Shown: positions 26,518 to 41,558 of the stretch, one piece after another
How positions within the stretch are numbered: the stretch's first letter is position 1
How the letters are laid out: every line of letters starts with the position of its first letter
Assembly (NCBI RefSeq): GCF_900113735.1
Contig: NZ_FOQM01000003.1
Location: 186,001-250,000, forward strand
From: Bradyrhizobium sp. Gha
Lineage (GTDB): Bacteria; Pseudomonadota; Alphaproteobacteria; Rhizobiales; Xanthobacteraceae
Length of the DNA stretch: 64,000 bases
Direction of reading: 5' to 3'
Notes under the pieces: generated by a model
Database searches by the model: none
What the model was told of the DNA's origin: nothing
The model's input: only the letters and a program-made list of their open reading frames with translations
Made by a program: the position numbers and the translations under genes

Positions 26518-26802
26518 GAAATCATTAGGTTTTTCCTTCTGATCTGTGGTCCTTCCCGAGTCAACCATCGTTTCAACCACGGAAACATACCGGCTTTTTT
26601 GGCCAATGACGGTGGCCGCCCCCTGCAAAAAGTCCGGGTGTGGTGGTCCGTAGGTGTCCTCTAGGACCTCGGGACACACGCCTGGGATCCCTGCCGCCTC
26701 CCAGATTGGCACGCCACGTGGCATTAGCCATGTTGCAGCGGTATGGCGCAGGGTGTGGCGTGTGACCCTGCCGGGCAGACGGGCAAGCCCTACGACATTC
26801 AA
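26452..26802 (-). pseudogene. Tyrosine recombinase/integrase, C-terminal remnant
   Basis: The minus-strand frame carries the end of a phage-type integrase: VTRHTLRHTAATWLMPRG (box II His-x-x-Arg-His) followed by PEVLEDTYGPPHPDF, whose Tyr is the expected nucleophile. The N-terminal domain and the first catalytic Arg are absent: the cytochrome gene ends 37 bp beyond, so the front of the gene has been deleted. The usual GH before the tyrosine is replaced by GV. The last ~20 codons read antisense through the tRNA and are probably not biologically meaningful. Confidence 0.8.
26471..26517 (+). other. attL: tRNA-Pro 3' half, left end of island
   Basis: The 47 bp from the anticodon stem to CCA. The first 17 bp and the last 20 bp recur at 43588-43628 (one mismatch in the last 20), with a 6-bp deletion between. 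Integration next to a tRNA 3' end with int immediately inside is the usual geometry of tyrosine-recombinase islands. Confidence 0.75.
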
Positions 26803-26838
26803 ACGGGGGAGAATCCGTTCTGCAGCTCCGTCATTCTG

Positions 26839-27150
26839 TCACTTGAGTGAGCGGATGTAGTCGGCCAAATCCGATATTTCTGATCGCTGGAGCGACAGGC
26901 TTGGCATATTGGGGTGCGGCTTGAGCAGCAGGAACGCGAGTTTGTTCTGATCGAACTCGGGCGTTCGCGCGATCTGGCTGAATGGCGGCGCATGGTCGAT
27001 GGCATTCGTCTGGCCGGACTCGACGATATGACAGATTGAGCACCAGCGTTTTGCGATGTCCTTGCCGTGTTGGGGATCGGCCACCGCGGATTGCGCCAGA
27101 ATCGCGCACGCGAGCAATACCACGAAGGAGGATTTAAGCGTTTCGGACAT
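26839..27150 (-). CDS. Small exported class I cytochrome c
   Basis: A 103-aa periplasmic cytochrome. A signal peptide (MSETLKSSFVVLLACAILAQSAVA) precedes one heme motif, Cys37-Ser-Ile-Cys40-His41; the methionine ligand is likely in HPNMPSLSL. It resembles short soluble electron-shuttle cytochromes that feed terminal oxidases or nitrogen-oxide reductases. A longer frame exists but MSETLK at 27150 gives a proper signal peptide. It is the first intact gene inside the left end of the island; the hemerythrin gene lies upstream on the same strand with a 94-bp gap. Confidence 0.88.
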   Translation of the reverse strand: MSETLKSSFVVLLACAILAQSAVADPQHGKDIAKRWCSICHIVESGQTNAIDHAPPFSQIARTPEFDQNKLAFLLLKPHPNMPSLSLQRSEISDLADYIRSLK

Positions 27151-27244
27151 GGTAGGCCTTTTACGTTCGGCGAGGTGGCTTGTCCGCCCGGCTGCATTTG
27201 GTCGGCGTATTGCTGCTGGGAACCTTATGGCCAAGAAAACGCGG

Positions 27245-27808
27245 CTACTTTCGTTCGGCTTCAGCCTCTTGCTCCAGCCGCAGAATATGGGCGCGCAGCG
27301 CATCGAACCGCTCTTCGGCAACGTCGCTGAACAGCGGATCCTTGAGACCGGTTTCCGCCGAGGCGATCTCGGTCCAATCCTGTGGCTTGAGTGCCTTGAG
27401 CGCAGCGGGAAAGAAATCGCGATCTTCCATCATCACGTGACGGCGCTCGTGCGCGATAAAATCGCGAACGATGATATCCACATTTTCGCGAAGCATTTCC
27501 CGATCCGCGAGTACGCCGTCGACCACCCGAGCGACGCGGCGTAGAAGCTGGGCCCCTTTCTGGTGTTCGCGAGCCAGATCACCGATCTTCGCAGCAGCAG
27601 CTGGATCGCGTGTTTTTAGCTTGGCAAAGACGCGGTCTTCCTGGGGATGGTGATACACTTCCGGGTAGACTTCGAAATAACTGATCACCGCGCGAATGAC
27701 CTCGTAGTCGGGACGTTCTCCGCGGTCGAACACCTCGAGTTCCCGCTCGAGGATGGTGAGCAGTGTCTCGATATTGCGATGCTCTTGGGACAGGCGTTCA
27801 ATGATCAT
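27245..27808 (-). CDS. Hemerythrin HHE-domain protein
   Basis: A 187-aa cytoplasmic non-heme diiron protein. Candidate iron ligands: His10 (QEHRNIE), His53/His54 and Glu57 (VYHHPQED), His82 (REHQ), His120 and His124 (IAHERRHVMMEDRDFFP) and Glu128, fitting the HHE repeat. Such proteins bind oxygen or nitric oxide or protect iron-sulfur proteins. A FixK-type box (TTGCGACAGATCAA, 27866-27879) lies 58 bp upstream of the start at class II distance, so oxygen-controlled expression is inferred. The gene is divergent from the zinc-ribbon gene. Confidence 0.9.
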   Translation of the reverse strand: MIIERLSQEHRNIETLLTILERELEVFDRGERPDYEVIRAVISYFEVYPEVYHHPQEDRVFAKLKTRDPAAAAKIGDLAREHQKGAQLLRRVARVVDGVLADREMLRENVDIIVRDFIAHERRHVMMEDRDFFPAALKALKPQDWTEIASAETGLKDPLFSDVAEERFDALRAHILRLEQEAEAERK

Positions 27809-27865
27809 GGCAACACTCCACTGAGTGAACCGTTTCGAAGAATGATCCTCTGGCCTGCATCTGCT

Positions 27866-27879
27866 TTGCGACAGATCAA
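27866..27879. promoter_or_regulatory. FixK/FNR-type box ahead of the hemerythrin gene
   Basis: TTGCGACAGATCAA fits the rhizobial FixK2 consensus TTG[A/C]-N6-[T/G]CAA. Its centre is ~64 bp from the hemerythrin ATG, leaving room for a class II (-41.5) promoter and a short leader. Confidence 0.6.
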
Positions 27880-27947
27880 ATCTCGTCAGATTAGTATGCA
27901 GCCACGTACGCTGAAATGACCTCAGCTGCCGGAGAACGAGGAAATCG

Positions 27948-27961
27948 TTGATCTAGATCAT
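27948..27961. promoter_or_regulatory. FixK/FNR-type box ahead of the zinc-ribbon gene
   Basis: TTGATCTAGATCAT differs from the perfect TTGA-N6-TCAA dyad only at the last base. It lies 54 bp before the zinc-ribbon ATG, again at class II distance. Together with the box at 27866 it makes this a two-box divergent control region. Confidence 0.6.
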
Positions 27962-28015
27962 TTCACCATGCCGCCAACATCGCATGCTGCTCACCGGACA
28001 CGAGGGAGGTTCCAT

Positions 28016-28231
28016 ATGGCACCGTTCTCAGCACTACACGAAAGATGCCCTCGCTGTGGTTCCGGGTTGATGCACCTCGAGTGGCACGAACGCATTAATG
28101 CTCAGGAAGCGCAAGAGCTCTGGCGCTGCTGGAATTGTAAAAGCGAATTTGTCACCGCTGCCGAGCCGGACAGGACGGAGCCGTCAGCCGCCGACATCAC
28201 CGAACCGTTCTTTACGAACCTGCTCGTCTGA
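28016..28231 (+). CDS. Small zinc-ribbon protein
   Basis: A 71-aa cytoplasmic protein with two CxxC knuckles, Cys11-x2-Cys14 (ERCPRCGSG) and Cys38-x2-Cys41 (RCWNCKSEF), a simple zinc ribbon. The ATG at 28016 follows a strong GGGAGG; an upstream in-frame ATG lacks this. No catalytic domain is present, so it may be a regulator or protein-binding adaptor. The diheme cytochrome gene follows 58 bp later on the same strand and is probably cotranscribed from the box at 27948. Confidence 0.75.
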   Translation: MAPFSALHERCPRCGSGLMHLEWHERINAQEAQELWRCWNCKSEFVTAAEPDRTEPSAADITEPFFTNLLV

Positions 28232-28289
28232 TCAGATAGGCCCGGCCGATCCAGAAGGACGCTATCGTGCCTCATCCATTTCAAGCGCC

Positions 28290-29012
28290 ATGAAGTTGCG
28301 GACTCTGATGATCGTCGTGATTGCTGCGATACTCCCGCCATTCAATGCGGGAGCACAGCTGAACTTGCCTGCTGGCAGCACGTCAACCCAACTATCCGAC
28401 CTGATGATCGCGCTACAATTCCAACACATCAAATTATGGTTTGCCGGAAAGTTCAGCAACTGGGATCTGGCGAATTATGAGCTTCGACAGATCCAGACAA
28501 ACTTGCGGAAGGTAATGCCGTCCCCCTCCGAAAGCTTGCGATCGTCTCAAGGTACCGAAGAGCTGCAAGCTCTGGATCGCGCGATCCAACAGAAAGATGG
28601 TGCAGCTTTTTCCAAGGCCTACTCGGATCTCACGAACGAATGCAACGCCTGCCACCGCGCCAGCGGATTCGGTTCGATCGCCATCCAGGTGCCGGCCAAC
28701 TCGCCGTTCAGCGATCAGCTGTTCGTGGATCAGGTCGCGCAGGGGCGCGCGCTCGCTCACGGGACCTGTGGCCTCTGTCACGTCGTCTCGGATTCCTCAA
28801 GGGAGACGCCTGCCTTTCGTTTCCCCGCGCCAAGCTTCGGCGAAATTGCCAGCCGACCATCTTTTTCAGCCAACGATCTCCGACAACTATTGACGTCAAA
28901 TCACCGTCGCGTCGGCCCGAACCAGGCAATGCTCAACCCAAAGCTCGTCGAATACCAGATTGACGCGATCGTGGCGTTCTTCGAGACCTTGCAAGCCGAC
29001 CGGGCTCGCTAA
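28290..29012 (+). CDS. Exported diheme cytochrome c
   Basis: A 240-aa periplasmic protein. After the signal peptide (cleavage near AGA, residue 22) there is a helical N-terminal domain holding the first heme motif, Cys118-Asn-Ala-Cys121-His122, and a class I cytochrome domain with a second, Cys160-Gly-Leu-Cys163-His164. The helical part with NECNACHRASGF near its end resembles cytochrome c-prime-like four-helix folds, and the second half is a conventional cytochrome c. It may relay electrons to a peroxidase, oxidase or NO-handling enzyme. A longer frame upstream is rejected because MKLRTLMIVVIAAIL starts a signal peptide. Confidence 0.85.
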   Translation: MKLRTLMIVVIAAILPPFNAGAQLNLPAGSTSTQLSDLMIALQFQHIKLWFAGKFSNWDLANYELRQIQTNLRKVMPSPSESLRSSQGTEELQALDRAIQQKDGAAFSKAYSDLTNECNACHRASGFGSIAIQVPANSPFSDQLFVDQVAQGRALAHGTCGLCHVVSDSSRETPAFRFPAPSFGEIASRPSFSANDLRQLLTSNHRRVGPNQAMLNPKLVEYQIDAIVAFFETLQADRAR

Positions 29013-29031
29013 GTTCTCAGCTTGCAGCTCT

Positions 29032-29484
29032 TTAGCACGCGATGAGGTCGGTATGTCCAAATCCCCGTGAGTAGTCGAGCAGTGAGACGATCGTGGGTGT
29101 CAGGCGAAAGACGCAGACCTGCGAGGTTTTCGGCATGGGGAGATCGAGGCCTTTCTGGTTCGGATATCGCGAGATCAGGAGCCGCAAGGCTTTTTCGAAT
29201 TCGGCGGGATCCGTTACGAGGTTCGCGCGTGCCGCCATCGACAAACCCGCGATGTCCAATACCTGGGCGGGATCGTCGTCCACCGTTAGCGAGACCCGAT
29301 CGTCCCTCGCCAGGTTGGCTGCCTTCTGGCTGTCCGCTCCGCAAAGAAAATAGATGACGAGTCCATCGTTGGCGTAGCCGACGGTAGTCACCTGGGGCCA
29401 CCCGTCGGGTCGTACCGTAGCGATCCTCGCGGTCCGGTGCTGATTCAAAAGCCGAAGGATCTTCCGCCTGAACTTTTCGTCCAT
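29032..29484 (-). CDS. Pyridoxamine 5'-phosphate oxidase-family flavoprotein
   Basis: A 150-aa split-barrel protein of the PPOX family that binds FMN or F420. Typical opening: RRKILRLLNQHRTARIATVRPDGWPQVTTVGY, then VIYFLCGADSQKAANLARDDRVSLTV. The ATG at 29484 has GAGG eight bases upstream; two ATGs at 29496-29499 have none. Its substrate is unknown. It follows the 70-aa gene by 46 bp on the same strand, so both are probably read from the FixK-type box at 29798. Confidence 0.82.
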   Translation of the reverse strand: MDEKFRRKILRLLNQHRTARIATVRPDGWPQVTTVGYANDGLVIYFLCGADSQKAANLARDDRVSLTVDDDPAQVLDIAGLSMAARANLVTDPAEFEKALRLLISRYPNQKGLDLPMPKTSQVCVFRLTPTIVSLLDYSRGFGHTDLIAC

Positions 29485-29530
29485 TGGTTGCCTCATCATG
29501 AACGTGGTGATGGCGGTGTTCAAACCGTAC

Positions 29531-29743
29531 TCAGCTTGGGAAATCCGCCGGCTCCACGGCGATGCGATCGGCGTGAAGTGACCAGTCTCGAATCGCGCGC
29601 CCCTCGCAAAATGTCTGCTGGGCCAGCAGGGCTGCTTCCGTCTCGTCGCGCGCATCGATGTCGATCGTGTGTTGGCACGCTTCACAAGGCTGTCCCTGGT
29701 CGCCAACCACGTCCTTGAGAAAGCGGACGACAAAATGTGCCAT
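29531..29743 (-). CDS. Conserved small protein with paired cysteines
   Basis: A 70-aa protein (MAHFVVRFLKDVVGDQGQPC...) with Cys20 and Cys23 (CEAC) and a third Cys near residue 46. The compact alpha/beta pattern and the absence of a signal peptide suggest a soluble cytoplasmic protein. I do not recognise the family. A perfect FixK-type box (29798-29811) lies 54 bp upstream of its start, and the PPOX gene follows. Confidence 0.65.
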   Translation of the reverse strand: MAHFVVRFLKDVVGDQGQPCEACQHTIDIDARDETEAALLAQQTFCEGRAIRDWSLHADRIAVEPADFPS

Positions 29744-29996
29744 GGTCTCTCACTTTCGATTTGCCCGGCATCTTGCCGGATCTGCCAGCAGTCCAGATTG
29801 ATCAGGATCAAGCGATGGAGCTCCGCCAAGCGGTAAGAATTACCGACCTCCGCCCGAGCTTGCGAAGGACCTCACGAGGCACCCGTTCGGCGACATCGAA
29901 AAGCACTTGCTGGACGAGTAGCGCAGGCCGTTGGAGCAGCCTGCGTGACGTGGCAGCTCCGACTACCGGCTTGGCGATTCCGATGGGAGAGAAACG
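29744..29996. other. Intergenic region with FixK-type box and a possible gene remnant
   Basis: It holds the box at 29798-29811. On the plus strand an open, GC3-rich stretch ends in TAG at 29919-29921 and reads ...ELAKDLTRHPFGDIEKHLLDE, without any start codon after the preceding TGA at 29799. That looks like the tail of a deleted gene, but it is short. Confidence 0.35.
29798..29811. promoter_or_regulatory. FixK/FNR-type box (perfect dyad)
   Basis: TTGATCAGGATCAA is a perfect TTGA-N6-TCAA dyad. Its centre is ~61 bp from the ATG of the minus-strand 70-aa gene, matching a class II promoter; the plus-strand CBS gene starts 186 bp away, so control of the minus-strand pair is more likely. Confidence 0.7.
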
Positions 29997-30458
29997 ATGC
30001 GGGCGTCAGATATCATGCGGACCTCGTTCGCAACTGTGAGGCCGGAAGCACCGCTGCTGGAGGCCCTCCATCTCCTTCTCGAGACCAATCAACGTGGCCT
30101 GCCGGTTCTCAATCGCGAAGGGGCCTTGGTCGGCATCATTGCCGAAGGCGACTTCCTCCATCGTCGCGAGCTGGGCGTCACCTATCCCGAAGGGTGTTGG
30201 CTCGAATGGCTGCTGGGGAAGCAGGAAGGCGAACTTGCTCGTGAGCGAACCAGGGGACTGCGGGTCGAAGCAGTCATGAGCCGTCATCCCGTTTGCGTCG
30301 AGGAGAATGCCACGATCGATGCTGTCGTCAAGGAAATGGATGTCTACCAGATCTCGCAGCTGCCGGTGCTCCGCAAGAGAAAGGTCGTGGGTATCGTTGG
30401 CCGGATGCAGATCCTCACGGCGCTGGCAAGCTGTCTTGGGAAGCCTGGCAAGCCTTGA
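29997..30458 (+). CDS. CBS-domain protein
   Basis: A 153-aa cytoplasmic protein made of two CBS motifs (about residues 1-60 and 85-145: RASDIMRTSFATVRPEAPLLEA and VEAVMSRHPVCVEENATIDAVV), separated by a short acidic helix. Such stand-alone pairs bind adenine nucleotides such as AMP, ATP or NAD and report energy state to partners. The target is unknown. The OpgC-like gene begins 41 bp after its stop, so the two are probably one transcript. Confidence 0.88.
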   Translation: MRASDIMRTSFATVRPEAPLLEALHLLLETNQRGLPVLNREGALVGIIAEGDFLHRRELGVTYPEGCWLEWLLGKQEGELARERTRGLRVEAVMSRHPVCVEENATIDAVVKEMDVYQISQLPVLRKRKVVGIVGRMQILTALASCLGKPGKP

Positions 30459-30499
30459 GAGAACAGGTCAGCCGAGCGGCGGTTTTTCGAGCTTTTGAG

Positions 30500-31612
30500 A
30501 TGGGTCCACTCGACAAGATGCCTGACCGAGACATTCGGCTCGATGCCTGCAGAGGCATTGCACTCTGGTTCGTCTTCATCAACCACATCCCCGGGAATAT
30601 CTGTAGTTGGCTTACGTTGAGCCATTATGGATTCAGCGACACCTCTGAAGTCTTCATGTTTGTCTCGGGGCTGACGTGCACGATGGCATATGGGCACGTG
30701 TTCAGAAGCGCCGGGACTTGGGCAACCATCTGTCATACGGTACGGCGGAGCTGGGAGATTTATTCGGCATTTCTGCTGTTGACGCTATGTCTGGTAGTGA
30801 CCGTTCATTGGATGGATGCCGACCTCGCAGACGAGACAAATGTGGCGATCGTCCTGCAGAAGCCGGGAGAAGCTCTGTCGCGTGCGGCAATCCTGCAATA
30901 CCGGCCCGTCAATACGGACGTGCTGCCGACTTTCGTGCTCTTCCATTTGCTGTTTGCGCCGTGGCTCCTGCTTTTGCTCAGATGGCCAAATGCGACCTTG
31001 GCGCTTTCGGCTCTCCTGTACGGCTTGGTCCAGACTTACGGTTGGAACCTGCGGGGATGGCCGACGAACGACTGGTATTTCAACCCGTTCGCCTGGCAAT
31101 TCCTCGTCACGATCGGTGGATGGTGGGCGGTGGTGGGGCGTGGGCGGTTGGCGCCATTCGTGATGTCGCGTCCGGCGATCATGCTTTCGGCCGCATACCT
31201 GATTTGGTCACTGGCTGTTACAATGAGTTGGATCGATCCGGCGCTCGAGCTTGCAGTTCCTCAGTTCATGAAGGGCTGGATCTACCCAATAGACAAGTCG
31301 GATCTTGATCCGCTGCGGCTTCTGCATTTCCTTGCGCTTGCGGTGTGTGTCGCCAATATCGTGCCGGCGCATTGGGCCGCCTTACGGTCGCGCGCGCTGT
31401 TGGGCGCTGTTCGTTGTGGAGAGAATTCGCTCGAGGTTTACTGTGTGGGAGTTTTGCTCTCGGTTGCCGCTTACTTCCTTCTGAGGACTGCATCCGACGA
31501 CGTGCTTGCTCAAATTATGGTCAGCGGCATGGGGATCGCGCTTCTCACAGTCGTTGCCACCGTGTTGACCCGAACCACGGACCTGGCCGCGTCTCGAATG
31601 AGATTGCTCTGA
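30500..31612 (+). CDS. OpgC-domain membrane acyltransferase-like protein
   Basis: A 370-aa multi-pass inner-membrane protein of the OpgC group (membrane-bound acyltransferase 3 relatives), which succinylate periplasmic glucans or modify surface sugars. It opens DRDIRLDACRGIALWFVFINHIPGN with the DxxRGxALxxVxxxH pattern of the family, and has about ten hydrophobic helices. A GEKS-like ENSLEVYCVGV segment near residue 305 also fits. The upstream extension to 30293 overlaps the CBS gene and is rejected. The acceptor is not known. Confidence 0.82.
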   Translation: MGPLDKMPDRDIRLDACRGIALWFVFINHIPGNICSWLTLSHYGFSDTSEVFMFVSGLTCTMAYGHVFRSAGTWATICHTVRRSWEIYSAFLLLTLCLVVTVHWMDADLADETNVAIVLQKPGEALSRAAILQYRPVNTDVLPTFVLFHLLFAPWLLLLLRWPNATLALSALLYGLVQTYGWNLRGWPTNDWYFNPFAWQFLVTIGGWWAVVGRGRLAPFVMSRPAIMLSAAYLIWSLAVTMSWIDPALELAVPQFMKGWIYPIDKSDLDPLRLLHFLALAVCVANIVPAHWAALRSRALLGAVRCGENSLEVYCVGVLLSVAAYFLLRTASDDVLAQIMVSGMGIALLTVVATVLTRTTDLAASRMRLL

Positions 31613-31665
31613 CTCCATCTCTCTTCGGCCTTCGCACGCATCCGAGCCGGTATCGGCCAGCAGCC

Positions 31666-32007
31666 TCATTGCTGCAACGTCTTCAAGAACGCCATGAAGT
31701 CGCCGACCTGATCGGCTTCGAAACGAAATTCCGGCATTGCCGGATGCCCCGTGACGATGCCCTCGGCCAGGGCCTCTTGCAGCATCTCGATTGGATATCG
31801 TTCGTGTAACGTCCTGAATGGGGGAGCGATTTTGAGGGGGCTGAGGCTGACCTTGTCGGTCGAGTGGCACTTCGCACAATACAGCAGTGCAAGGCGCCGG
31901 CCTTGTTCGACGCTTGAAGCCACAGTTGGGCTCGAGGGGAGAAGCAAATTCGCAGCGAGCATGGCGCCCGCGATCGCGCGTACGGGTCTCCTCACGTCGC
32001 GCTCCAT
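31666..32007 (-). CDS. Small exported class I cytochrome c
   Basis: A 113-aa periplasmic cytochrome with an N-terminal signal (RAIAGAMLAANLLLPSSPTVA) and one heme motif, Cys44-Ala-Lys-Cys47-His48; the methionine ligand is likely in HPAMPEFRF. It is related in layout to the cytochrome at the left end of the island. Its ATG overlaps the stop codon of the universal stress protein gene by one base (TGATG), so translation is coupled and the box at 32899 should control both. Confidence 0.88.
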   Translation of the reverse strand: MERDVRRPVRAIAGAMLAANLLLPSSPTVASSVEQGRRLALLYCAKCHSTDKVSLSPLKIAPPFRTLHERYPIEMLQEALAEGIVTGHPAMPEFRFEADQVGDFMAFLKTLQQ

Positions 32008-32840
32008 CAATGCGACATCATGACCGGAACGGTCATGCTGCGGAACGTCTCCTGCGTGACACCGCCGAACACCGCTTCCTGGAATCGAGAATGGCCGTAA
32101 CCGCCCATGACCAGGAGGTCGAGGCCTTCATCCGCAGCGATCGACAGGATGCTCGCTTGCAGATTACTGCGGTCGGATTGAAGCGAAACGGTCTTTGCCG
32201 GCAAGCCCTTCCGCGCGAGGTGCCTCAGGAGGTGTTCGGGCGATGCGTCGGACGGTACCTCGGATGCATTGAGGGTGATGGTGGTCAGAGCGTCTGCCCG
32301 GATGATGAATGGCATCGCGTCACGTAAGGCGCGGGCGGCAAGGCGACTGCCGTCCCAGCAGATGCCGACGCGTGCCGCCTTGAACGTACCCCGGAAAGTA
32401 TAAGGTATGAACAGCAAAGGCCCACCCGACTGCAACAGGAGCTCCTTAGGAAGCTGGTTGTCGAACGTATCGCAATCCGGATCGCCTTGTGACACGATCG
32501 TCAAATCATAGAGGCGAGCCGCTGCCCCGGCTTTCGAGACGATCTCGGCAGGAGTCTCGCTCAGTGCGTATGTCCCGTAGTCGATTCGGGCGTTCTTCGC
32601 CTCGATCTCGAAAATGCGCAGTGCAGCTTGGGCGCGTTCCAGCGCACGTTCGTACTCGACTTGCAGCGATGCTGCGATGGCCGCGCCGCCTTCCGCAACA
32701 AACGGCACGTTCGTCGAGGCATATCCTGTCGCAAGTGCATCCAGATGCGCGCCGGCACTCATCGCCAGGGAAACGGACGCATCGATGACGGGGCGCGGCG
32801 AGCGCTCTGTTGGAATATGCACCAGTAGATCCTTGAACAT
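32007..32840 (-). CDS. Universal stress protein, two UspA domains
   Basis: A 277-aa cytoplasmic protein with two UspA-like halves (about residues 1-145 and 150-277). The second half has the ATP-binding pattern LDLLVMGGYGHSRFQEAVFGGVT (G-x2-G-x9-G-[S/T]), while the first half has only a weak version. USP tandems are typical members of low-oxygen regulons. The ATG at 32840 follows GGAGGCACGC; longer upstream frames are discarded. A perfect FixK-type box (32899-32912) lies 58 bp upstream and is shared with the divergent SDR gene. Confidence 0.88.
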   Translation of the reverse strand: MFKDLLVHIPTERSPRPVIDASVSLAMSAGAHLDALATGYASTNVPFVAEGGAAIAASLQVEYERALERAQAALRIFEIEAKNARIDYGTYALSETPAEIVSKAGAAARLYDLTIVSQGDPDCDTFDNQLPKELLLQSGGPLLFIPYTFRGTFKAARVGICWDGSRLAARALRDAMPFIIRADALTTITLNASEVPSDASPEHLLRHLARKGLPAKTVSLQSDRSNLQASILSIAADEGLDLLVMGGYGHSRFQEAVFGGVTQETFRSMTVPVMMSH

Positions 32841-32898
32841 GCGTGCCTCCCGTTTCGATCTTGCCGTCAAAGAGCAGCACATGTCGCCATTGGGAGAC

Positions 32899-32912
32899 TT
32901 GACGCACGTCAA
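32899..32912. promoter_or_regulatory. FixK/FNR-type box shared by USP and SDR genes
   Basis: TTGACGCACGTCAA is a perfect dyad placed almost midway between the two divergent starts (58 bp to the USP ATG, 55 bp to the SDR ATG), so it can serve as a class II site for both. Confidence 0.75.
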
Positions 32913-32967
32913 AGCGGCAGCAGGAACTGCGGATATCCTCCTGACCGTGTAGGCGGGAGTGCCGGAC

Positions 32968-33693
32968 ATGGCGCGGGTGGCATTGGTGACGGGCGGTACC
33001 AGAGGTATTGGTGCCGCCGTATCGCAAGCGCTTCAGACGGCGGGCTACCGGGTAGCTGCCACCTACGCCGGAAACGCCGAGGCGGCCAAAGCCTTCATGA
33101 GCCGAACGGGCATCTCGTCCTATCAATGGGACATTGGTGATTTCGATGCTTGCGCCATCGGCGTGAAATCCGTTGAGTCCTCGCTCGGACCAATCGACGT
33201 TCTTGTCAACAATGCCGGAATCGTTCGTGACGCGACGCTTCACAAGATGAGCCGGACGCAATGGGATGCTGTGATCCGCACCAATCTCGACGGTGCGTTC
33301 AACATGTGCCGACAGGTCATCGACGGCATGCGTGCGCGACGATACGGTCGAATCATCAACATCTCGTCGATCAACGGACAAAAAGGCCAGTTCGGTCAGA
33401 CCAACTATTCCGCCGCGAAAGCCGGCGAGCTTGGGTTCACCAGGGCGTTGGCGCTGGAAACAGCGCGCCTCGGAATCACGGTCAACGCCATCTGCCCGGG
33501 CTATATCCATACCGAGATGCTGGATGCTGTGCCGCGAGATGTTCTGGAGAACAGCATTCTGCCGCAAATTCCGGTCGGCCGTCTCGGTCGACCAGAAGAG
33601 ATTGCGCGCGCCGTCGTGTTTTTGGCGGCAGAAGACGCGGGTTTCATCACTGGATCGACAATGTCGATCAATGGCGGCCAGTACATGATCTGA
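32968..33693 (+). CDS. phaB: SDR oxidoreductase, acetoacetyl-CoA reductase-like
   Basis: A 241-aa short-chain dehydrogenase. It has the nucleotide motif TGGTRGIG (residues 9-16), the N-N-A-G strand (VLVNNAGIVRD), catalytic Ser (NISSINGQKGQFGQ) and the Tyr-x-x-x-Lys (NYSAAKAG). This pattern is typical of PhaB, which reduces acetoacetyl-CoA to (R)-3-hydroxybutyryl-CoA for PHA synthesis; FabG is the main alternative. GGGAG at 32954-32958 favours the ATG at 32968 over a GTG nine bases earlier. A PHA synthase gene lies 2.7 kb downstream. Confidence 0.8.
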   Translation: MARVALVTGGTRGIGAAVSQALQTAGYRVAATYAGNAEAAKAFMSRTGISSYQWDIGDFDACAIGVKSVESSLGPIDVLVNNAGIVRDATLHKMSRTQWDAVIRTNLDGAFNMCRQVIDGMRARRYGRIINISSINGQKGQFGQTNYSAAKAGELGFTRALALETARLGITVNAICPGYIHTEMLDAVPRDVLENSILPQIPVGRLGRPEEIARAVVFLAAEDAGFITGSTMSINGGQYMI

Positions 33694-33749
33694 GCTTCGA
33701 CCGACCGTTGTCGCTTCCAACTCGCGCAAGCTGTTTACTCCCGGGGGCC

Positions 33750-36293
33750 TTATAGAATTGAAACTGCGAGGCGCTTGGCAATCTCCGCGGAGACGAGATA
33801 AGCGAGCGCGATAGCGATGATCGTCGCCACGAGTGCCGCAGAAGGAGCGGTAAAGCCGAACAGTTGGCCCCATGGGCCGAGCGCAAGTCCTACGCCCACG
33901 ATGAGCGCGCCGAAGGACGTCGCGATCAAGATGGGGTGGGGACCGTTTGCGCGCCACGGCATCCGGCGAGACCTGATTACGAAAATCACCAGGATCTGCG
34001 TCGATATTGATTCCACGAACCAGCCGGTCTGAAACAGTGCTGCATCAGCTTCAAATAGCTTGAGAAGAACGGCAAAGGTGACCACGTCGAAGAGGGAAGA
34101 GACCATTCCCATCACAATCGTGAAGCGGAGGATATTTGCCATGTTCCAGGTTTCCGGTCGCGCGACATCTTCGCGGTCGACCTCATCGAAAGGAATGCCA
34201 ACTTCGGAGAGGTCGTAGATCAGGTTGTTCAACAGAATTTGCAGCGGTAGCAGTGGCAGGAACGGAAGAACGATCGAGGCCAAGGCCATCGAAAGCATGT
34301 TGCCGAAGTTGGAGCTTGTTCCCATTCGGACATACTTCAGGATGTTGGCAAACGTTCTGCGGCCTTCGCGCACGCCGGCCGCAAGGACTGAAAGGTCGGG
34401 AGCGAGCAGGATCATGTCGGCGGCTGCGCGGGCGACTTCGGTCGCCCCCGTGACGGATATGCCGACATGGGCTGCATGGATCGCCGGGGCGTCGTTGACG
34501 CCGTCTCCCATAAAGCCGACCACGTGCTGGCGATGGCGGAGTGCGGCAATGATCCGTCGCTTCTGATCAGGATCGATGCGGGCAAACAGATCGATATTAT
34601 CGACCTGGGCCGCGAGCGCTGCATCGGTGAGCCCGGAGATCTCAATTCCGGTCATGATACGATTCGACTGAAGACCGACCGAACGAGCGACGTGAGAGAC
34701 AACTGCGCCGTGGTCACCCGAGAGGATCTTTATCGTCACGCCGAGCGAGGTAAGGGTTTTGATGGCTGAGGCTGCATCCTGCTTCGGCGGGTCGGCGAAG
34801 ACACAGAACCCAATCATGGTCAGATCCATCTCGTCGCCGACGGCAATCGTCTGCTGTCCAAGCGGAATGGATCTGACTGCGACAGCTAGAAGCCGAAAGC
34901 CGTCGCGGGCATATCGATCCTGTATGTCTTCCATCTTTTTCTGCCAGGCGGGATCGAGCGGATGGGCCAGACCATCGATGTCCACGGCGACGCAGCGCGC
35001 CAGGATGGCTTCCGGAGCGCCTTTTGCGATCAAGATGTGTTCGTCGTTCCGTGCCACCAGCACCGACAGGCACCTCCGCTCGAAGTCGAACGGCACCTCC
35101 GCGAGTCGAACCCAGCCATCCATGCCGCCGTCTTTCGCTGAGAGTATCGCATGATCGAGGGGACTTCTGACCCCGGCTTGGAAGGTGCTGTTGAGATACG
35201 CGAGGCTCAGAACGCGGTCACTGGGTCGCCCCTTCGGATCGACCCGCGCTTCAAGCGTTATTCTCGCTTCCGTCAGCGTGCCGGTTTTGTCCACGCAAAG
35301 CGTCTCCATGGCGCCCAGATCATGGATTGCGGACAGTCGCTTGACGATAACCTTGCGGTCGGCCATGCGCAGCGCGCCGCGGGCGAGCGTCACCGTCATC
35401 ACCATGGGAAGCAGCTCGGGTGTCAGCCCCACTGCGAGCGCGACCGCGAACAGGAACGATTCCAGCGCGGGGCGTTGCGCGATGAGATGAGCCATCAAGA
35501 CGAAGAGGGTGAGAAACAAGGTAAGCCGAAGGATCAATAGTCCGAGCTTGCGCACGCCCTGTTCGAGAGCCGTTGGCGGAGCGTTTGCCGCCAATGCGGC
35601 AGCGATCCCGCCGAACCGGGTTTGTCCTCCGGTTTTCACCACCAACATCGTGCCGCTGCCGCCCACGGTGCTGGTTCCGGCGAACAGGGCATTGGTCGCT
35701 TCCGCCGGCGACGCCGCGGAGCAGGGAGCGGCCGTCTTGAGGGCCGGAAACGGCTCTCCGGTCATCAAGGCCTCATTGACCTGCAATTCTTGGGCCTCGA
35801 GGACGATGCCATCGGCGGGTATGAGGTCGCCGATCCGGAGCTTCACGATGTCGCCGGGCACGAGCCCCGTCGCCGGTATTGTAATGTCCTTGCTATCCCG
35901 GACGGCGTCGGTCTGAATGGCAACCGAGTCCCGCAACGCTTCGGCGGTCCGCTCGGCGCGATGTTCCTGAACGATGTCCAGCGTGAGGGACAGAGAGAGC
36001 ACGGTTGCGATAATCGCGAAGCTTCCAACGTCGCCGCTAAGTCCGGATACGAGCGCGGCCGCCAGGAGCATCGCAATCAAGGGGTTCCAAAGGCGTTGCC
36101 CGAGCTTGCGCAGGACCGATCGGCTTGGAGAGGCGTCAGCGTGGTTTGCTCCGAATATCGCGAGGCGCCGGTCCGCTTCGACCTGCGAAAGCCCGTTGGG
36201 GCCAGAGCCTAGCGCGCGGTAGAGGGCGTCTTTTGGTGTTTGCCAGAAGTCGGCTGCGGCCAAAGCCGTGGCCGCGCTAGGCTGCTCGATCAT
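33750..36293 (-). CDS. P-type cation-transporting ATPase (MgtA/P3-like)
   Basis: An 847-aa inner-membrane P-type ATPase. The phosphorylation site is Asp335 in CVDKTGTLT; the ATP-hinge has GDGVNDAPAI near residue 595; the M4 stretch GLTPELLPMVM resembles magnesium-transporting P3B pumps. The actuator loop reads LMTGEP (TGE at 178-180), the normal TGES having Ser replaced by Pro; the catalytic Glu is kept. Substrate could be Mg2+ or another divalent cation. No MgtC gene is nearby. The start at 36293 has only a weak ribosome site; a box at 36357 lies upstream. Confidence 0.88.
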   Translation of the reverse strand: MIEQPSAATALAAADFWQTPKDALYRALGSGPNGLSQVEADRRLAIFGANHADASPSRSVLRKLGQRLWNPLIAMLLAAALVSGLSGDVGSFAIIATVLSLSLTLDIVQEHRAERTAEALRDSVAIQTDAVRDSKDITIPATGLVPGDIVKLRIGDLIPADGIVLEAQELQVNEALMTGEPFPALKTAAPCSAASPAEATNALFAGTSTVGGSGTMLVVKTGGQTRFGGIAAALAANAPPTALEQGVRKLGLLILRLTLFLTLFVLMAHLIAQRPALESFLFAVALAVGLTPELLPMVMTVTLARGALRMADRKVIVKRLSAIHDLGAMETLCVDKTGTLTEARITLEARVDPKGRPSDRVLSLAYLNSTFQAGVRSPLDHAILSAKDGGMDGWVRLAEVPFDFERRCLSVLVARNDEHILIAKGAPEAILARCVAVDIDGLAHPLDPAWQKKMEDIQDRYARDGFRLLAVAVRSIPLGQQTIAVGDEMDLTMIGFCVFADPPKQDAASAIKTLTSLGVTIKILSGDHGAVVSHVARSVGLQSNRIMTGIEISGLTDAALAAQVDNIDLFARIDPDQKRRIIAALRHRQHVVGFMGDGVNDAPAIHAAHVGISVTGATEVARAAADMILLAPDLSVLAAGVREGRRTFANILKYVRMGTSSNFGNMLSMALASIVLPFLPLLPLQILLNNLIYDLSEVGIPFDEVDREDVARPETWNMANILRFTIVMGMVSSLFDVVTFAVLLKLFEADAALFQTGWFVESISTQILVIFVIRSRRMPWRANGPHPILIATSFGALIVGVGLALGPWGQLFGFTAPSAALVATIIAIALAYLVSAEIAKRLAVSIL

Positions 36294-36356
36294 CGGAAGG
36301 CTCGCCGGCTTGTTGGTCGCTCGACCAGCAAGGTAAGAGGCAGGTCAATCCTTGGG

Positions 36357-36370
36357 TTGATGCAGCTCAA
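36357..36370. promoter_or_regulatory. FixK/FNR-type box between the ATPase and PHA synthase genes
   Basis: TTGATGCAGCTCAA is a perfect dyad, 63 bp from the ATPase ATG and 49 bp from the phaC ATG. Both distances allow a class II promoter, so it may serve both divergent genes. Confidence 0.75.
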
Positions 36371-36419
36371 TTCGGTCTCAGACAACACAGTTAGGTTGCG
36401 GAGCCCAAAGGAGTTCACC

Positions 36420-38249
36420 ATGTCGCCTCCTGCATCCGTCAACCGCCTTCCCATGGCTTCGAATTCTGACGAGGTCCCCATCGAGCCTCAGGCGGTCGAG
36501 GCAATGGTGCCAATGCAGCCGTCCGGCTCCGATCCAGCCGTCGATGACATCGATCGATTCTTCCACGCGGCGCTGGCGCGGTTGACCGGCGGCGTCTCGC
36601 CGGCAGCGCTGGCGCTGGCTTTTGCCGACTGGCAACTGCACCTTCTGGCTTCACCCGGTAAGCGGGCCAGCCTTGCCGGCCGGGCGATCCAGAATGCGTT
36701 TGATCTCGTCGATGCCATGGTGCCGAGGCATGCGGTATTCGAGCCTTGGTCCGTGATCCGGCCGCCGGAGAACGATCGCCGTTTCACGGGCCCCGATTGG
36801 GAGCTGCCATCCTTCAATCTCCTGGCCCAGGCTTTCCTGCTGAACCAACAATGGTGGCATTCGACGACGACCGGTATTCACGGACTGGCCCATTCGAACG
36901 CGGCGATCGCCGACTTCGCGCTGCGCCAATGCCTGGACACGGTGGCCCCGACGAATTTCGCCGTCAGCAATCCTGAAGTTCTGCGCAAGATCATGGAGAC
37001 TGGCGGCGGCAACTTCGTCTATGGCCTGCACAACTTTGTCGAGGACTGGCAAGCCCTGCTCGCTGGTGCAAGGCTCAGGAGCGATCAGACGTATGTGGTG
37101 GGTAAGGACGTTGCCATCACACCCGGCAAGGTCGTCTATCGCAACGAGCTGATCGAGCTCATCCAGTATTCCCCGACGACGCCGACCGTGCGGCCCGAAC
37201 CCGTTCTGATCGTGCCTGCCTGGATCATGAAGTACTACATTCTCGATCTGACGCCGCGTAATTCTCTCGTCCGTTATCTGGTCGAGAGCGGCTTCACTGT
37301 CTTCATGATTTCATGGAAGAACCCCACACCCGAATATCGCAATTTCAGTCTCGAAGATTACCGCGAGCGCGGAGTGGATGCCGCGATCACTACCATCAAC
37401 TCGCTTCGGCCTGGACAGGCTATTCACGCCGCCGGCTATTGCCTTGGCGGCACCCTGTTGTCGATCGCGGCGGCCGGGTTGGTTCGCGAGCGGCCCGAAT
37501 GCCTGCGAACGGTGACGCTGCTCGCGGCGCAAACCGATTTCACGGAAGCCGGCGAGCTCACCTTGTTCATCAACGAAAGCCAGGTCGCGTTCCTGGAGGA
37601 TATGATGTGGCGGCAGGGGCTGCTCGCAACGGCACAGATGGCAGGGGCCTTTCAGATGTTGCGGACAAATGACCTGCTTTGGTCGCGCGTCGTACGGGAC
37701 TATCTGATCGGAGAGCGGGCCGCGCCAAGCGAACTGATGTCGTGGAACGCCGATGCCACGCGTTTACCCTACCAAATGCATTCGGACTATTTGCGGCGCC
37801 TGTTTCTCAACAATGATCTCGCCGAGGGCCGATATCAGGTCAGTGGCAGGCCGGTCTCGCTCGCGGATCTGCACATCCCGATGTTTGTCGTCGGCACCTT
37901 GCGCGACCACGTCGCGCCGTGGAAGTCGACATACAAGATCAACTTCCTTGCCGATGCAGACATCACCTACGTTCTGACGAGCGGCGGACACAATGCCGGC
38001 ATTGTCGCGCCTCCCGGCCAAGAGGGGCACAGCTATCAGGTGCATACGAAGAAGGCTCATGATCCCTATCTCGGTCCGGACGAATGGATCAAGCGCGCAC
38101 CGTCCCACGAGGGATCATGGTGGACGGAGTGGACGCGATTTCTCGCCGCGCATTCCGGTCAGTCTGTTCCGAGCTGCTTGACGGCAGATTTGGGACAGAA
38201 GAGCGCGCCGTCGGATGAGGCACCTGGCTCTTACGTGCTCGAGCCGTAG
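36420..38249 (+). CDS. phaC: Poly(3-hydroxyalkanoate) synthase (class I-like)
   Basis: A 609-aa polymerase that joins hydroxyacyl-CoA units into storage polyester on carbonosome granules. The lipase-like box is GYCLGG with nucleophile Cys341; Asp496 (RDHVAPW) and His524 (GGHNAGI) complete the triad. A ~40-residue N-terminal tail precedes the PHA synthase N-domain. AAAGGAG at 36407-36413 gives an ideal start at 36420. It stands alone, without phaA or phasin, but a PhaB-like SDR is in the same island. Its box is at 36357. Confidence 0.95.
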   Translation: MSPPASVNRLPMASNSDEVPIEPQAVEAMVPMQPSGSDPAVDDIDRFFHAALARLTGGVSPAALALAFADWQLHLLASPGKRASLAGRAIQNAFDLVDAMVPRHAVFEPWSVIRPPENDRRFTGPDWELPSFNLLAQAFLLNQQWWHSTTTGIHGLAHSNAAIADFALRQCLDTVAPTNFAVSNPEVLRKIMETGGGNFVYGLHNFVEDWQALLAGARLRSDQTYVVGKDVAITPGKVVYRNELIELIQYSPTTPTVRPEPVLIVPAWIMKYYILDLTPRNSLVRYLVESGFTVFMISWKNPTPEYRNFSLEDYRERGVDAAITTINSLRPGQAIHAAGYCLGGTLLSIAAAGLVRERPECLRTVTLLAAQTDFTEAGELTLFINESQVAFLEDMMWRQGLLATAQMAGAFQMLRTNDLLWSRVVRDYLIGERAAPSELMSWNADATRLPYQMHSDYLRRLFLNNDLAEGRYQVSGRPVSLADLHIPMFVVGTLRDHVAPWKSTYKINFLADADITYVLTSGGHNAGIVAPPGQEGHSYQVHTKKAHDPYLGPDEWIKRAPSHEGSWWTEWTRFLAAHSGQSVPSCLTADLGQKSAPSDEAPGSYVLEP

Positions 38250-38258
38250 ACGCGGCAG

Positions 38259-39242
38259 TCACGGCCGCAAAACGGCTGCGCCAGTCAGCTTGCCGTCCCT
38301 CAGACGGGCGAGCGCTTCATTGGTCTCGACGAGCGGGAATACCGTCGTGTGTGTCTGGATATCGATCTTTGCGGCGGCGGCGAGAAAATCGATGCCGTCC
38401 TTTCGCGTGAGATTGGCAACCGATACGATCTGCCGTTCGCCCCAAAGAATACGATAGGGGAACGTCGGAATGTCGGACATATGAATGCCGGCGCATACAA
38501 CGCGACCGCCCTTGCGCACCGCGCGCAGGGCAAGCGGCACCAACGCTCCGACCGGCGCGTAGATGATGGCGGCATCGAGTTCGGTCGGCGGAATGTCCTC
38601 TGAAGCGCCGGCCCAGTCAGCGCCGAGCGAAAGCGCAAGTTGCTGCGCTTCCTTGTCGCCCTCACGGGTGAAGGCGTAAACTTTCCGTCCCTGCGAGTTG
38701 GCCACCTGCGCGACGATATGGCCGGCCGCGCCGAAGCCGTAAATGCCAAGCGTTTCGCCGTCGCCGGCCATCACCAGGGATCGCCAGCCGATCAGGCCGG
38801 CGCAAAGCAGCGGCGAAAGGTCTGCGTCCTCGCCATGCTCGCCGAGCGGAAAGCAATATCGGGCATTGGCGATAAGATGGCTGGCAAAGCCGCCATCGCG
38901 TGTGTAGCCGGTGAATTCAGGACGATCGCAGAGATTTTCCTTGTCGGCGCGGCAATAAATGCACTCGCCACAGGTGAAGCCGAGCCATGGAACTCCTACG
39001 CGCATGCCCAACTCCAGCGCATTGACGCCTGCACCGAGTGCATCGATGCGGCCCACGACTTCATGTCCCGGGATGATGGGATAGGAAACATCGGGTAGCT
39101 CGCCATCGACCACGTGCAGGTCGGTCCGGCATACGCCACACGCGCTGACTTTGACGCGAACCTCGCCGGGGCTGGGGACCGGGTCGGGTCGTTGCTGCAA
39201 CGTCAGCGGCGCGCCGCGCGCGGAGAGAGCCATCGCGTACAT
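38259..39242 (-). CDS. Zinc-dependent alcohol dehydrogenase
   Basis: A 327-aa NAD(P)-dependent medium-chain alcohol dehydrogenase. The catalytic zinc site is C-x2-C-R-T-D-x-H ([10 protein letters not shown]) with the GHEVVG motif; the structural zinc lobe has C-x2-C-x2-C-x7-C ([15 protein letters not shown]). The Rossmann motif [10 protein letters not shown] is near residue 168. It should interconvert short alcohols and aldehydes, a fermentative role consistent with the island theme. It is convergent with phaC (9 bp between stops). No FixK-type box was found upstream of its start. Confidence 0.9.
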
Positions 39243-39381
39243 GTCGTATTCTCGCGGCTCGTCGTGCGTCGTCCGGGTCTTGTCTCGCCGGATCTGAAGT
39301 CAGTGTGCGCCGTTCGCGACGCGAGCGCAAGATGCGACTGCCCACAGGTTCTCGAAGGGGCCCACATATCGGGACGTCAAA

Positions 39382-39522
39382 TCAGGCGTCGAGATGGTGC
39401 AGGCGCTGGCGGTTGCGCAGCACGATCCGGCGGGCACCGGAGAAACCGAGAACCTCAAGGCTCGCGCGCTTCACCAGGCGTACCGCTGTTTCGATGATGG
39501 CCCGGCGGCAAGCCGCCGTGAG
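39382..39522 (-). pseudogene. Possible CRP/FNR-regulator C-terminal remnant
   Basis: A minus-strand open stretch of 46 codons between the stop of the phage-holin-family gene and a TGA at 39382-39384. It has high GC at third positions and ends GARRIVLRNRQRLHHLDA, the kind of wing and tail found at the end of Crp/Fnr-family winged-helix proteins. There is no start codon of its own and it shares the frame of the upstream gene. If real, it is a leftover of a deleted regulator. The remaining ~140 bp to the ADH start show nothing. Confidence 0.3.
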
Positions 39523-39984
39523 CTAGGGGGGTGCAACAGGCGGCTTCCGCAGGCTCTTGACTGCGATCGCAACTAGCGGCGTGAGAAGCGGTAGCAGGCC
39601 GCTCAGCGGGTGGTGGATCGTCCCCCTCACTTGAGCGTGGAGCGCGCGCGCCTCGAGCTGAATGGCTTCGATAGCTGCACCATGGATTTCATTGGCGAGC
39701 TCGATTTCGCGTCCTGACGGCGGCCGCCCCGCGACGAGGAACAGCATTGCGGCGATGACGAAATTGATCGCGCCGAGAATGGCCGCCGCGACGATTGCGC
39801 TCCAGATCTGGACCAGGGCGAAATAGGCCGACAATTCGAGCATCAGCAGACCAAAGGTGGCGATCAGCGCTGCGAAGGCCCGCAGGCCCAGCCCGATCAG
39901 GAGGTGCCGTAGTCTGATGTCGGCGATGATCCTGTCGGTGCGCCAGAGCACGCGCAGGTGTTTGATGATATTTTCCGTAGCCAC
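39523..39984 (-). CDS. Phage holin-family (Phage_holin_3_6/DUF1469-like) membrane protein
   Basis: A 153-aa membrane protein with two adjacent hydrophobic helices (about residues 28-55 and 60-85), an amphipathic tail, and a third short hydrophobic stretch near 130-145. The pattern is that of the actinobacterial/proteobacterial Phage_holin_3_6 proteins, which are not phage holins in function and often travel with DUF883 proteins. The start is GTG at 39984, directly after the stop of the 91-aa gene, so the two are translationally coupled. Confidence 0.7.
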   Translation of the reverse strand: MATENIIKHLRVLWRTDRIIADIRLRHLLIGLGLRAFAALIATFGLLMLELSAYFALVQIWSAIVAAAILGAINFVIAAMLFLVAGRPPSGREIELANEIHGAAIEAIQLEARALHAQVRGTIHHPLSGLLPLLTPLVAIAVKSLRKPPVAPP

Positions 39985-40260
39985 CTAGTGTCTCCTCAGC
40001 ATGAATCCGACGACCACGCCAAGTGCGAAGGTCGACGCGAGCGACGCCACCGGACGCTCTGCGAGGAGGCTATGGAGCTGCTCTTGCTCCTCACTGACGG
40101 TCTCGCCGAGTTCGGTCAGCGCGGCCTTGATCTGGTCGGCCAAGGCCTCGGCACAGTCTTCCGGCGCATTGGGCATCTGCTCGCCGGCCTTGCTCAGCAG
40201 GCGCGCAACATCGACCTTCATCGCGTTCAGTTCGTCGTTCATGCTGCCGGTGTCGAACAT
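39985..40260 (-). CDS. DUF883/YqjD-like tail-anchored protein
   Basis: A 91-aa protein: an acidic amphipathic helix region (residues ~7-65) followed by one C-terminal membrane helix with a basic end (ASLASTFALGVVVGFMLRRH). This is the layout of YqjD/ElaB/DUF883 proteins, which are inner-membrane and ribosome-associated in enterics. A second ATG lies six codons inside. The phage-holin-family gene follows with no gap. Two FixK-type boxes lie between it and the divergent Mla-type operon. Confidence 0.75.
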   Translation of the reverse strand: MFDTGSMNDELNAMKVDVARLLSKAGEQMPNAPEDCAEALADQIKAALTELGETVSEEQEQLHSLLAERPVASLASTFALGVVVGFMLRRH

Positions 40261-40311
40261 TGGCGGCCTCCATTCAATGGAAGAAGCCTATGCGAGCCGG
40301 CGCGTTGGCAA

Positions 40312-40325
40312 TTGATTTGCGTCAA
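40312..40325. promoter_or_regulatory. FixK/FNR-type box, proximal to the DUF883-like gene
   Basis: TTGATTTGCGTCAA is a perfect TTGA-N6-TCAA dyad, centred 58 bp from the start of the minus-strand DUF883-like gene, at class II distance. Confidence 0.72.
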
Positions 40326-40340
40326 CGGCGTGTTCCGGTC

Positions 40341-40354
40341 TTGACGCAGGTCAA
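40341..40354. promoter_or_regulatory. FixK/FNR-type box, proximal to the Mla-type operon
   Basis: TTGACGCAGGTCAA is a second perfect dyad 15 bp after the first. Its centre is 72 bp from the GTG start of the permease gene, so each divergent gene appears to own a box. Confidence 0.72.
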
Positions 40355-40419
40355 TCCAGGTGCGTGGCCGTGACCTAGAAACCTGGACGGATCAGGAGCG
40401 ATCCCATGAGGATACAGGC

Positions 40420-41556: not shown

Positions 41557-41558
41557 CG

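Follow-up and report, generated by a model that had tools for sequence, protein, structure and literature searches.

FixK2-type boxes on a tRNA-Pro-linked genomic island of Bradyrhizobium sp. Gha: a predicted low-oxygen regulon with a fixK2 relic

The locus: genes and boxes

The DNA analyzed here, referred to as the window, is a stretch of 64,000 nucleotides (nt) of Bradyrhizobium sp. Gha (assembly GCF_900113735.1, contig NZ_FOQM01000003.1, positions 186,001 to 250,000, forward strand), which harbors a genomic island of 17.1 kb (26518-43628), bounded by tRNA-Pro on the left and by a degenerate copy of the 3' end of this tRNA on the right. All seven candidate FixK/FNR-type boxes considered below fall inside this island. 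From sequence comparison we regard it as very probable that these boxes, except for a weak one at 27948, are sites of a FixK2-type activator, and that the resulting regulon is driven by FixK2 loci elsewhere in the genome. G-numbers designate genomes of relatives, L-numbers loci and C-numbers contigs of the strain's own genome.

Gene families were assigned with Pfam and NCBIfam. None of the 19 called island genes is interrupted by an internal stop, and no regulator was found among them with these two collections. The features of the island, including its ends, are the following.

26441-26517, + strand: tRNA-Pro(CGG), detected by ARAGORN; its 3' end is the left attachment site
26518-26838, - strand: probable C-terminal remnant of a tyrosine integrase, weakly matched (Phage_integrase, E=0.002, short of the cut-off; PHROG integrase, E=0.0009)
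26839-27150, - strand: c-type cytochrome, downstream of hemerythrin (PF00034)
27245-27808, - strand: hemerythrin-domain protein (PF01814)
28016-28231, + strand: small zinc-ribbon-like protein (PF13248, weak, below cut-off)
28290-29012, + strand: cytochrome c (PF00034)
29032-29484, - strand: pyridoxamine-phosphate-oxidase-like (PPOX) protein (PF01243)
29531-29743, - strand: protein of 70 amino acids (aa), an open reading frame (ORF) with no family
29997-30458, + strand: CBS-domain protein (PF00571)
30518-31612, + strand: OpgC-family membrane protein (PF10129)
31666-32010, - strand: c-type cytochrome (PF00034)
32007-32840, - strand: universal stress protein (USP; PF00582)
32968-33693, + strand: short-chain dehydrogenase (SDR; PF13561/PF00106)
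33750-36293, - strand: magnesium-type (IIIB) P-type ATPase (TIGR01524, 782 bits, cut-off 611)
36420-38249, + strand: PhaC-family poly-hydroxyalkanoate synthase (PF07167; 513 bits with the NCBIfam class I model, which falls short of the cut-off, 623)
38259-39242, - strand: zinc alcohol dehydrogenase (ADH; adh_fam_2, TIGR02822 over cut-off)
39381-39515, - strand: fixK2-like relic whose two pieces correspond to about codons 112-132 and 221-243 of the gene in G021 (85% and 89% by blastn against G021 locus L054)
39523-39984, - strand: holin-superfamily-III-like membrane protein (PF07332)
39985-40260, - strand: 91-aa protein, labelled DUF883-like in an earlier note on this DNA; no family reached threshold
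40420-43472, + strand: mlaE-mlaF-mlaD-type lipid transport operon (PF02405, PF00005, PF02470)
43588-43628, + strand: degenerate copy of the tRNA-Pro 3' end, the right attachment site (local score 51)

A homologue of the 91-aa protein precedes the holin gene in relatives as well. Taken together, the island appears to carry stress and storage genes, nearly all of them behind one predicted low-oxygen switch composed of the following boxes.

27866-27879: FixK2-type box, TTGA-N6-GCAA when read towards hemerythrin
27948-27961: weak candidate box before the zinc-ribbon/cytochrome genes, with one end mismatch (TTGA...TCAT)
29798-29811: perfect FixK/FNR box of the 70-aa/PPOX unit; the CBS-OpgC start lies 185 bp off on the other side
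32899-32912: sole perfect box between the USP-cytochrome and SDR units, at a fitting distance from each
36357-36370: sole perfect box between the ATPase and phaC genes, likewise at a fitting distance from each
40312-40325: perfect box facing DUF883-holin(-ADH)
40341-40354: perfect box facing the mlaEFD-type operon

The seven TTG[A/C]-N6-TCA[A/T] strings described in the earlier note were all recovered at their positions, and the five said to be perfect TTGA-N6-TCAA dyads (29798, 32899, 36357, 40312 and 40341) are indeed so and lie between island genes. The published FixK2 box form, TTG[A/C]-N6-[T/G]CAA (PMC9104804, PMC5582078), is matched by six of the seven sites, 27866 included; the site at 27948 falls outside this form and was otherwise seen only in one close relative, G021. 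The alcohol dehydrogenase gene (38259-39242) has no box of its own in the window, though four of the six upstream regions compared carry one, and its transcription here may start from the DUF883-holin promoter.

Box frequency in the island, the window and the genome

The window contains 6 perfect dyads versus 0.56 expected, a number that none of 100 shuffles reaches. The genome of the strain holds 158 perfect dyads in 8,253,313 bp against 36 for the reversed pattern, hence the motif is enriched genome-wide; even at this own-genome rate, the Poisson chance of finding five of them in 17.1 kb is about 2e-5. A first-order Markov model of the 2,033 bp of island intergenic DNA yields a mean of 0.03 perfect dyads and a maximum of 2 in 2,000 runs. 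The genome-wide count and the intergenic background model thus place the enrichment inside the island beyond chance for the perfect dyads.

The broader form TTG[A/C]-N6-[T/G]CAA occurs 12 times in the window, six times in island intergenic DNA, three times in the intergenic DNA of the flanks (49406, 52068 and 55821, in 4,839 bp, none with two TTGA halves) and three times inside called ORFs (4720, 36622 and 52793). The remark in the earlier note that no box was seen in the larger intergenic regions of the flanks holds for perfect dyads in flank intergenic DNA and needs correction beyond that, given these weaker intergenic matches and a sixth perfect dyad, at 52793, in the right flank. This last dyad (52793-52806) sits in a doubtful ORF of 49 aa, and the relatives' loci of the right flank are without a perfect box. 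Elsewhere in the genome, and among the matches listed, further clusters of perfect boxes are seen at C39:112183-118602 (4) and C35:34858-35388 (3), which are likely to mark additional FixK/FNR-controlled gene groups.

Conservation of the boxes in relatives

If the boxes are functional they should accompany their genes in other genomes. The 35 titled loci around relatives of the ATPase, out of 80 returned, span 648 kb and contain 128 perfect dyads versus 2 of the control pattern; the remaining 45, more distant, contain 8 perfect boxes altogether. Likewise, 11 island-type loci hold 82 boxes and 11 flank loci none, both sets being hand-picked.

For the comparison of single genes, upstream regions from -160 to +60 were used, with identical regions counted once and identity cut-offs chosen by us for each family. 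The ATPase gene has a box within one mismatch in 33 of 46 distinct upstream regions, perfect in 24. Restricting the set to the Bradyrhizobium-type genes (at least 65% identity) raises these figures to 25 and 22 out of 26, and the sole gene of these 26 lacking a box is a decayed copy on contig C82. A perfect box is found in all ten USP upstream regions and in six of eight for SDR (7/8 within one mismatch), as well as in phaC (4/6), mlaE (3/3), DUF883 (3/3), ADH (4/6, none of them in the window), the 70-aa gene (1/2) and OpgC (1/5). None was seen for holin (0/3) or the third cytochrome (0/7), both of which, as CBS, lie within or behind other units, nor in the single regions available for hemerythrin, zinc-ribbon, the second cytochrome and the flanking kinase (0/1 each).

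The hemerythrin site deserves separate treatment. Among 20 homologous loci, those fetched from 59 matching genomes among 146 searched, it is the clearest common block in the upstream DNA, located at -60 to -75 and reading TTGA-N6-GCAA in 18 and TTGA-N6-ACAA in one, window included. Hence, the sites are conserved before orthologous genes, with the exception of the CBS, holin and cytochrome genes.

Promoter geometry

Aligning 73 box-bearing promoters on the box reveals the motif TAnnnT 21 nt past it in 31 cases and 22 nt past it in 14, whereas all other offsets from 5 to 39 give 4 in all. After addition of four loci and removal of near-duplicates, 21 of 51 promoters show it at +21 and 10 at +22 (31/51 together), with a single TAnnnT at 20 other offsets (5-20 and 23-26). 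These positions place the box centre near -41.5 or -40.5, which is class-II spacing; in B. diazoefficiens nosR the box-to-start distance has been mapped at 40.5 (PMC5582078). The class-II position of the boxes, predicted from their spacing to the -10 element, is thus strongly supported. In the window the full TAnnnT at +21 is present for SDR, ATPase, phaC and DUF883, while mlaE, USP, hemerythrin, zinc-ribbon and the 70-aa gene display partial -10 forms.

Box-to-start gaps, which depend on the start codons assigned in the analysis, are 49-65 bp for all nine assigned promoters, in good agreement with the 50-65 bp proposed earlier for most of them. The 72 bp given for the permease is reproduced as 72.5 bp from the box centre; it is not the gap from box edge to start. 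Two of ten transcription-unit assignments, CBS-OpgC and zinc-ribbon/cytochrome, are uncertain. A conserved box before CBS-OpgC was sought in G021, where the alignable upstream part spans the gene start only. Standard sigma-70 promoters are fewer in the island than expected (2 vs 4.1), neither of them at an assigned promoter, and terminator-like sites (15 vs 12.8 expected) were not used.

Island ends and the tRNA-Pro site

The island differs from its flanks in GC content (60.5% vs 64.9%). At the left end, the best homology piece stops exactly at 26517 in 43 of 59 other genomes of the genus; at the right end, the score of the degenerate tRNA copy compares with a maximum of 28 over 500 shuffles. 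An empty site exists in the relative G005 (locus L259), in which the left flank, a single tRNA and the right flank from 43588 onwards are contiguous except for about 180 additional bases. It is the sole clean empty site among the seven tRNA-Pro loci of relatives: in G021, G056, G013 and G027 the matching right flank starts near 48560 (G013 retains 43590-43679 too), and in G036 and G014 no right flank match was found within 20 kb. The evidence for an integrase is a weak, sub-cut-off remnant directly after the tRNA.

tRNA-Pro(CGG) resembles a genus-wide integration hotspot, as an extra copy of its last 40-50 bases occurs on the same contig within about 40 kb in at least 9 of 59 other genomes. 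The idea that it is a general site of box islands was rejected, no perfect box being present in the seven relatives' tRNA-Pro loci (six of 20 kb and one of 6.5 kb). Directly outside the island lie a histidine kinase (Cache match below cut-off) and a response regulator (43729-46871), a pair present at the empty site of G005 and absent from the six other tRNA-Pro loci compared.

A fixK2 relic and the supply of the regulator in trans

The gap between the ADH and holin genes (39243-39523) aligns to the end (85%) and to an inner piece (89%) of a fixK2-like gene of the sister genome G021, which indicates that the window lineage once had a fixK2 sequence and has since lost most of it. In G021 the order is holin, fixL, fixJ, receiver, fixK2, ADH, all intact; the FixL of this cassette matches solved Sensor protein FixL chains across the heme PAS region and the kinase, and its FixK2 matches PDB 4i2o. 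A second G021 fixK2 (89%) lies elsewhere with its own receiver, fixJ and fixL. From the G021 order we infer that fixL, fixJ and the receiver formerly stood beside fixK2 in the window lineage too, although insertion of fixK2 alone, as a partial cassette, may also be the origin of the relic. In G096 and G245, ADH and holin are adjacent without the cassette, which may thus have entered an ancestor shared by the window and G021; we consequently make no claim that fixLJK belonged to this gene order from the start.

The earlier note described the island as a self-contained cassette, a description that fits the sister species and is wrong for the window copy. No intact CRP/FNR domain match was obtained in the island in the search of the strain's own genome (150 of 185 candidates scored), nor any FixL-like match in that genome search, so that the window copy holds a fixK2 relic only, and it is the sister species that retains fixL-fixJ-receiver-fixK2. 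With only this relic on it, the island would be driven in trans by fixLJ-fixK2 loci elsewhere. FixL, FixJ and FixK2 are present in the genome. FixK2 genes lie on contigs C82 (92% to PDB 4i2o) and C84 (83%), each beside a receiver and fixJ, with fixL cut by the contig end; contigs C5 and C20 end within FixL reading frames, two in all. Both of these FixK2 proteins keep a cysteine at the position that is serine in the solved C183S variant (described in PMC9104804). Contig C54 holds a third FixK-like gene, with 64% identity.

Contig C82 (L053, C82:40523-60522) also carries a second, decayed island gene set with 9 perfect boxes, consisting of an ATPase fragment, a broken phaC and DUF883-holin-mla. 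An FNR-type gene and a fixK2-receiver-fixJ-fixL locus adjoin this set. In G021, at about 6.08-6.18 Mb (L054, L170, L171, L265), most window genes are found in broadly the same order, inverted, over about 85 kb, along with CBS/USP-like genes and many additional boxes; the G021 pieces compared, which cover this region apart from 6.126-6.160 Mb, showed no orthologue of SDR or OpgC.

Like-named genes under FixK2 control in B. diazoefficiens

The 14-mer at 36357 recurs unchanged in B. diazoefficiens as the listed box of phaC2 (bll6073, TTGATGCAGCTCAA), a gene whose expression drops 27.9-fold in a fixK2 deletion; the drop is 90.9-fold for the CBS gene blr6074 and 92.6/20.9-fold for bsr6066-blr6067, a hypothetical protein and a holin (PMC9104804 Table 2). 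The blr6074 box is the reverse complement of the phaC2 box, and we read both as one site. FixK2 dependence has also been reported for blr6070 (Zn-ADH) and blr6074 (PMC2908626), and PhaC2 is called a FixK2 target in another report (PMC10888616). MCE, ABC/MlaF, MlaE, USP, PhaC2 and CBS are listed as microoxia-induced, with USP, PhaC2 and CBS marked as direct targets (PMC6515984).

Proposed mechanism and its alternatives

Judging from the boxes, the like-named B. diazoefficiens genes and the shared 14-mer, the island most likely constitutes a FixK2-type low-oxygen regulon. In the mechanism we propose, a fall in oxygen would lead the heme kinase FixL to phosphorylate FixJ, which in turn would switch on fixK2; FixK2 dimers would then occupy the dyads, each of them centred near -41.5, and bring RNA polymerase to promoters having a -10 element 21-22 nt past the box and lacking a standard -35. 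Dyads 32899 and 36357 would each drive two divergent genes, and the pair 40312/40341 would serve DUF883-holin(-ADH) and mlaEFD. The ancestral unit would have carried fixK2, most likely with fixL, fixJ and the receiver, between the holin and alcohol dehydrogenase genes, and once only pieces of fixK2 were left, control would have passed to the fixLJ-fixK2 loci elsewhere in the genome. The order of events from FixL to FixK2 is established for B. diazoefficiens and transferred here by analogy; for the window, FixK2 binding, low-oxygen induction, the identity of the acting FixK and the loss of fixLJ are what we infer.

The proposal of one FixK/FNR low-oxygen regulon with class-II promoters is strongly supported by the conserved boxes, the -10 spacing and the FixK2-dependent like-named genes of B. 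diazoefficiens, save for the two uncertain unit assignments. Several observations weigh against it. Only 4 of 9 window promoters have the full TAnnnT at +21; the box becomes rarer before ATPase relatives of less than 52% identity (8/20 within one mismatch, 2/20 perfect), it is perfect before none of seven CBS genes (4/7 within one mismatch), and for USP the distance from box to gene exceeds 90 bp in five of ten cases. The link to B. diazoefficiens is drawn from product names, neighbourhood and the shared 14-mer; its CBS gene is placed differently relative to phaC than in the window, and its MCE, ABC and MlaE genes carry no direct-target mark in the same list (PMC6515984). Finally, the genome of the strain encodes other CRP/FNR proteins (33 HTH_Crp_2 matches, 26 over cut-off), including an FNR-like one with N-terminal cysteines on C82.

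This last protein embodies the principal alternative, that the boxes are real and their main activator is an FNR-type protein of the FixK1/AadR kind, equipped with an iron-sulphur cluster (C82:56008), or a different member of CRP/FNR, in which case oxygen would be sensed directly and not through FixLJ. Its gene lies beside the second island-type gene set, FNR-type genes neighbour mla genes in three of four further species (L255-L257, not L254), and perfect TTGA dyads suit FNR equally well as FixK. Against this, the GCAA half-site kept upstream of hemerythrin in 18 of 20 homologues fits the FixK2 box, and the like-named B. diazoefficiens genes depend on FixK2 in the cited lists, so we deem an FNR-type activator unlikely. 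More improbable still is that the boxes were merely inherited by a decaying island whose regulator is gone and whose genes are no longer meaningfully controlled: the fixK2 relic, the probable integrase remnant and the decayed set on C82 speak for decay, while the absence of internal stops from the 19 called genes, the intact boxes and much of the -10 spacing, and the FixK2 genes elsewhere in the genome speak against it. That the sites arose by chance or from base composition has hardly any likelihood left. The three weaker matches and one perfect dyad in the flanks speak for it; the excess over controls, the conservation and the fixed spacing refute it for the perfect dyads of the island taken together, as well as for 27866, whereas 27948 may be a chance site.

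Returning to control by FixK2, the island may be an instance of mobile oxygen islands in Bradyrhizobium, modules that bring low-oxygen genes together with a fixL-fixJ-fixK2 cassette of their own and matching boxes, an idea that we advance tentatively and to which we grant somewhat less than an even chance. If true, a newly acquired module would be oxygen-regulated at once, the duplicate sensor would become dispensable after arrival as the resident FixK2 reads the same boxes, and the window would present the module just after this hand-over, with the scar still legible. It would then be a concrete case of incoming genes joining a host network by bringing a sensor and losing it once the sites are read by the sensor of the host. 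What the window itself displays is a set of predicted targets of global low-oxygen control that is packed into a tRNA-linked island, with promoter families of one strict geometry and the fossil of their own regulator. Such modules could have a bearing on the ability of rhizobia to live with little oxygen, whether in soil or in nodules.

Comparison with known systems

The mycobacterial DosR regulon resembles the island in the kinds of genes that it comprises (USP, CBS, P-type ATPase, storage polymer). Convergence with it is not supported by our scan, which used a DosR motif and covered 46 loci (L119-L164), that is 45 distant ATPase relatives and the Bradyrhizobium locus L125: the motif appears in four of them, with one match each and 4 mismatches. 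No USP, CBS or phaC match was found in these loci except L125, with queries that might miss very distant homologues. The neighbourhoods of actinobacterial ATPase relatives gave no USP, CBS or phaC match with these queries, and the DosR-like motif is almost absent from them.

FnrL/FNR regulons of alphaproteobacteria share with the window the TTGAT-N4-ATCAA site class and targets such as USP and a (heavy-metal) P-type ATPase; they differ in their activator, which in the window is most likely FixK2, set apart by the lack of the four cluster cysteines (PMC2908626). Concerning the core fixL-fixJ-receiver-fixK2 locus, the G021 cluster (L054) has the same gene order as the second G021 locus (L266), with proteins 72-89% identical. 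The L054 cassette is a second copy inside a box-dense cluster, and the window keeps only fixK2 pieces.

The closest likeness is to the bll6060-blr6074 cluster of B. diazoefficiens. As described, it unites phaC2, CBS, USP, Zn-ADH, holin, MCE/MlaE/ABC and CRP/FNR genes, families with like-named members in the window, and it shares with the window the type of box as well as the placement of a single box in a divergent gene pair (phaC2/CBS in B. diazoefficiens, phaC/ATPase in the window). FixK2 dependence is a measured property of the B. diazoefficiens genes (PMC9104804, PMC2908626, PMC6515984). What sets the window apart is that its genes belong to an island at tRNA-Pro which is framed by attachment repeats and holds a fixK2 relic, no intact regulator having been found on it, and that a magnesium-type ATPase, hemerythrin, PPOX and several cytochromes join the set. 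No description of a tRNA-linked island of such kind was found in the literature, judged from titles and abstract openings. Regulation through these boxes is hence known in kind, and so is the use of a single box for two divergent genes, while the tRNA packaging and the sensor scar are new.

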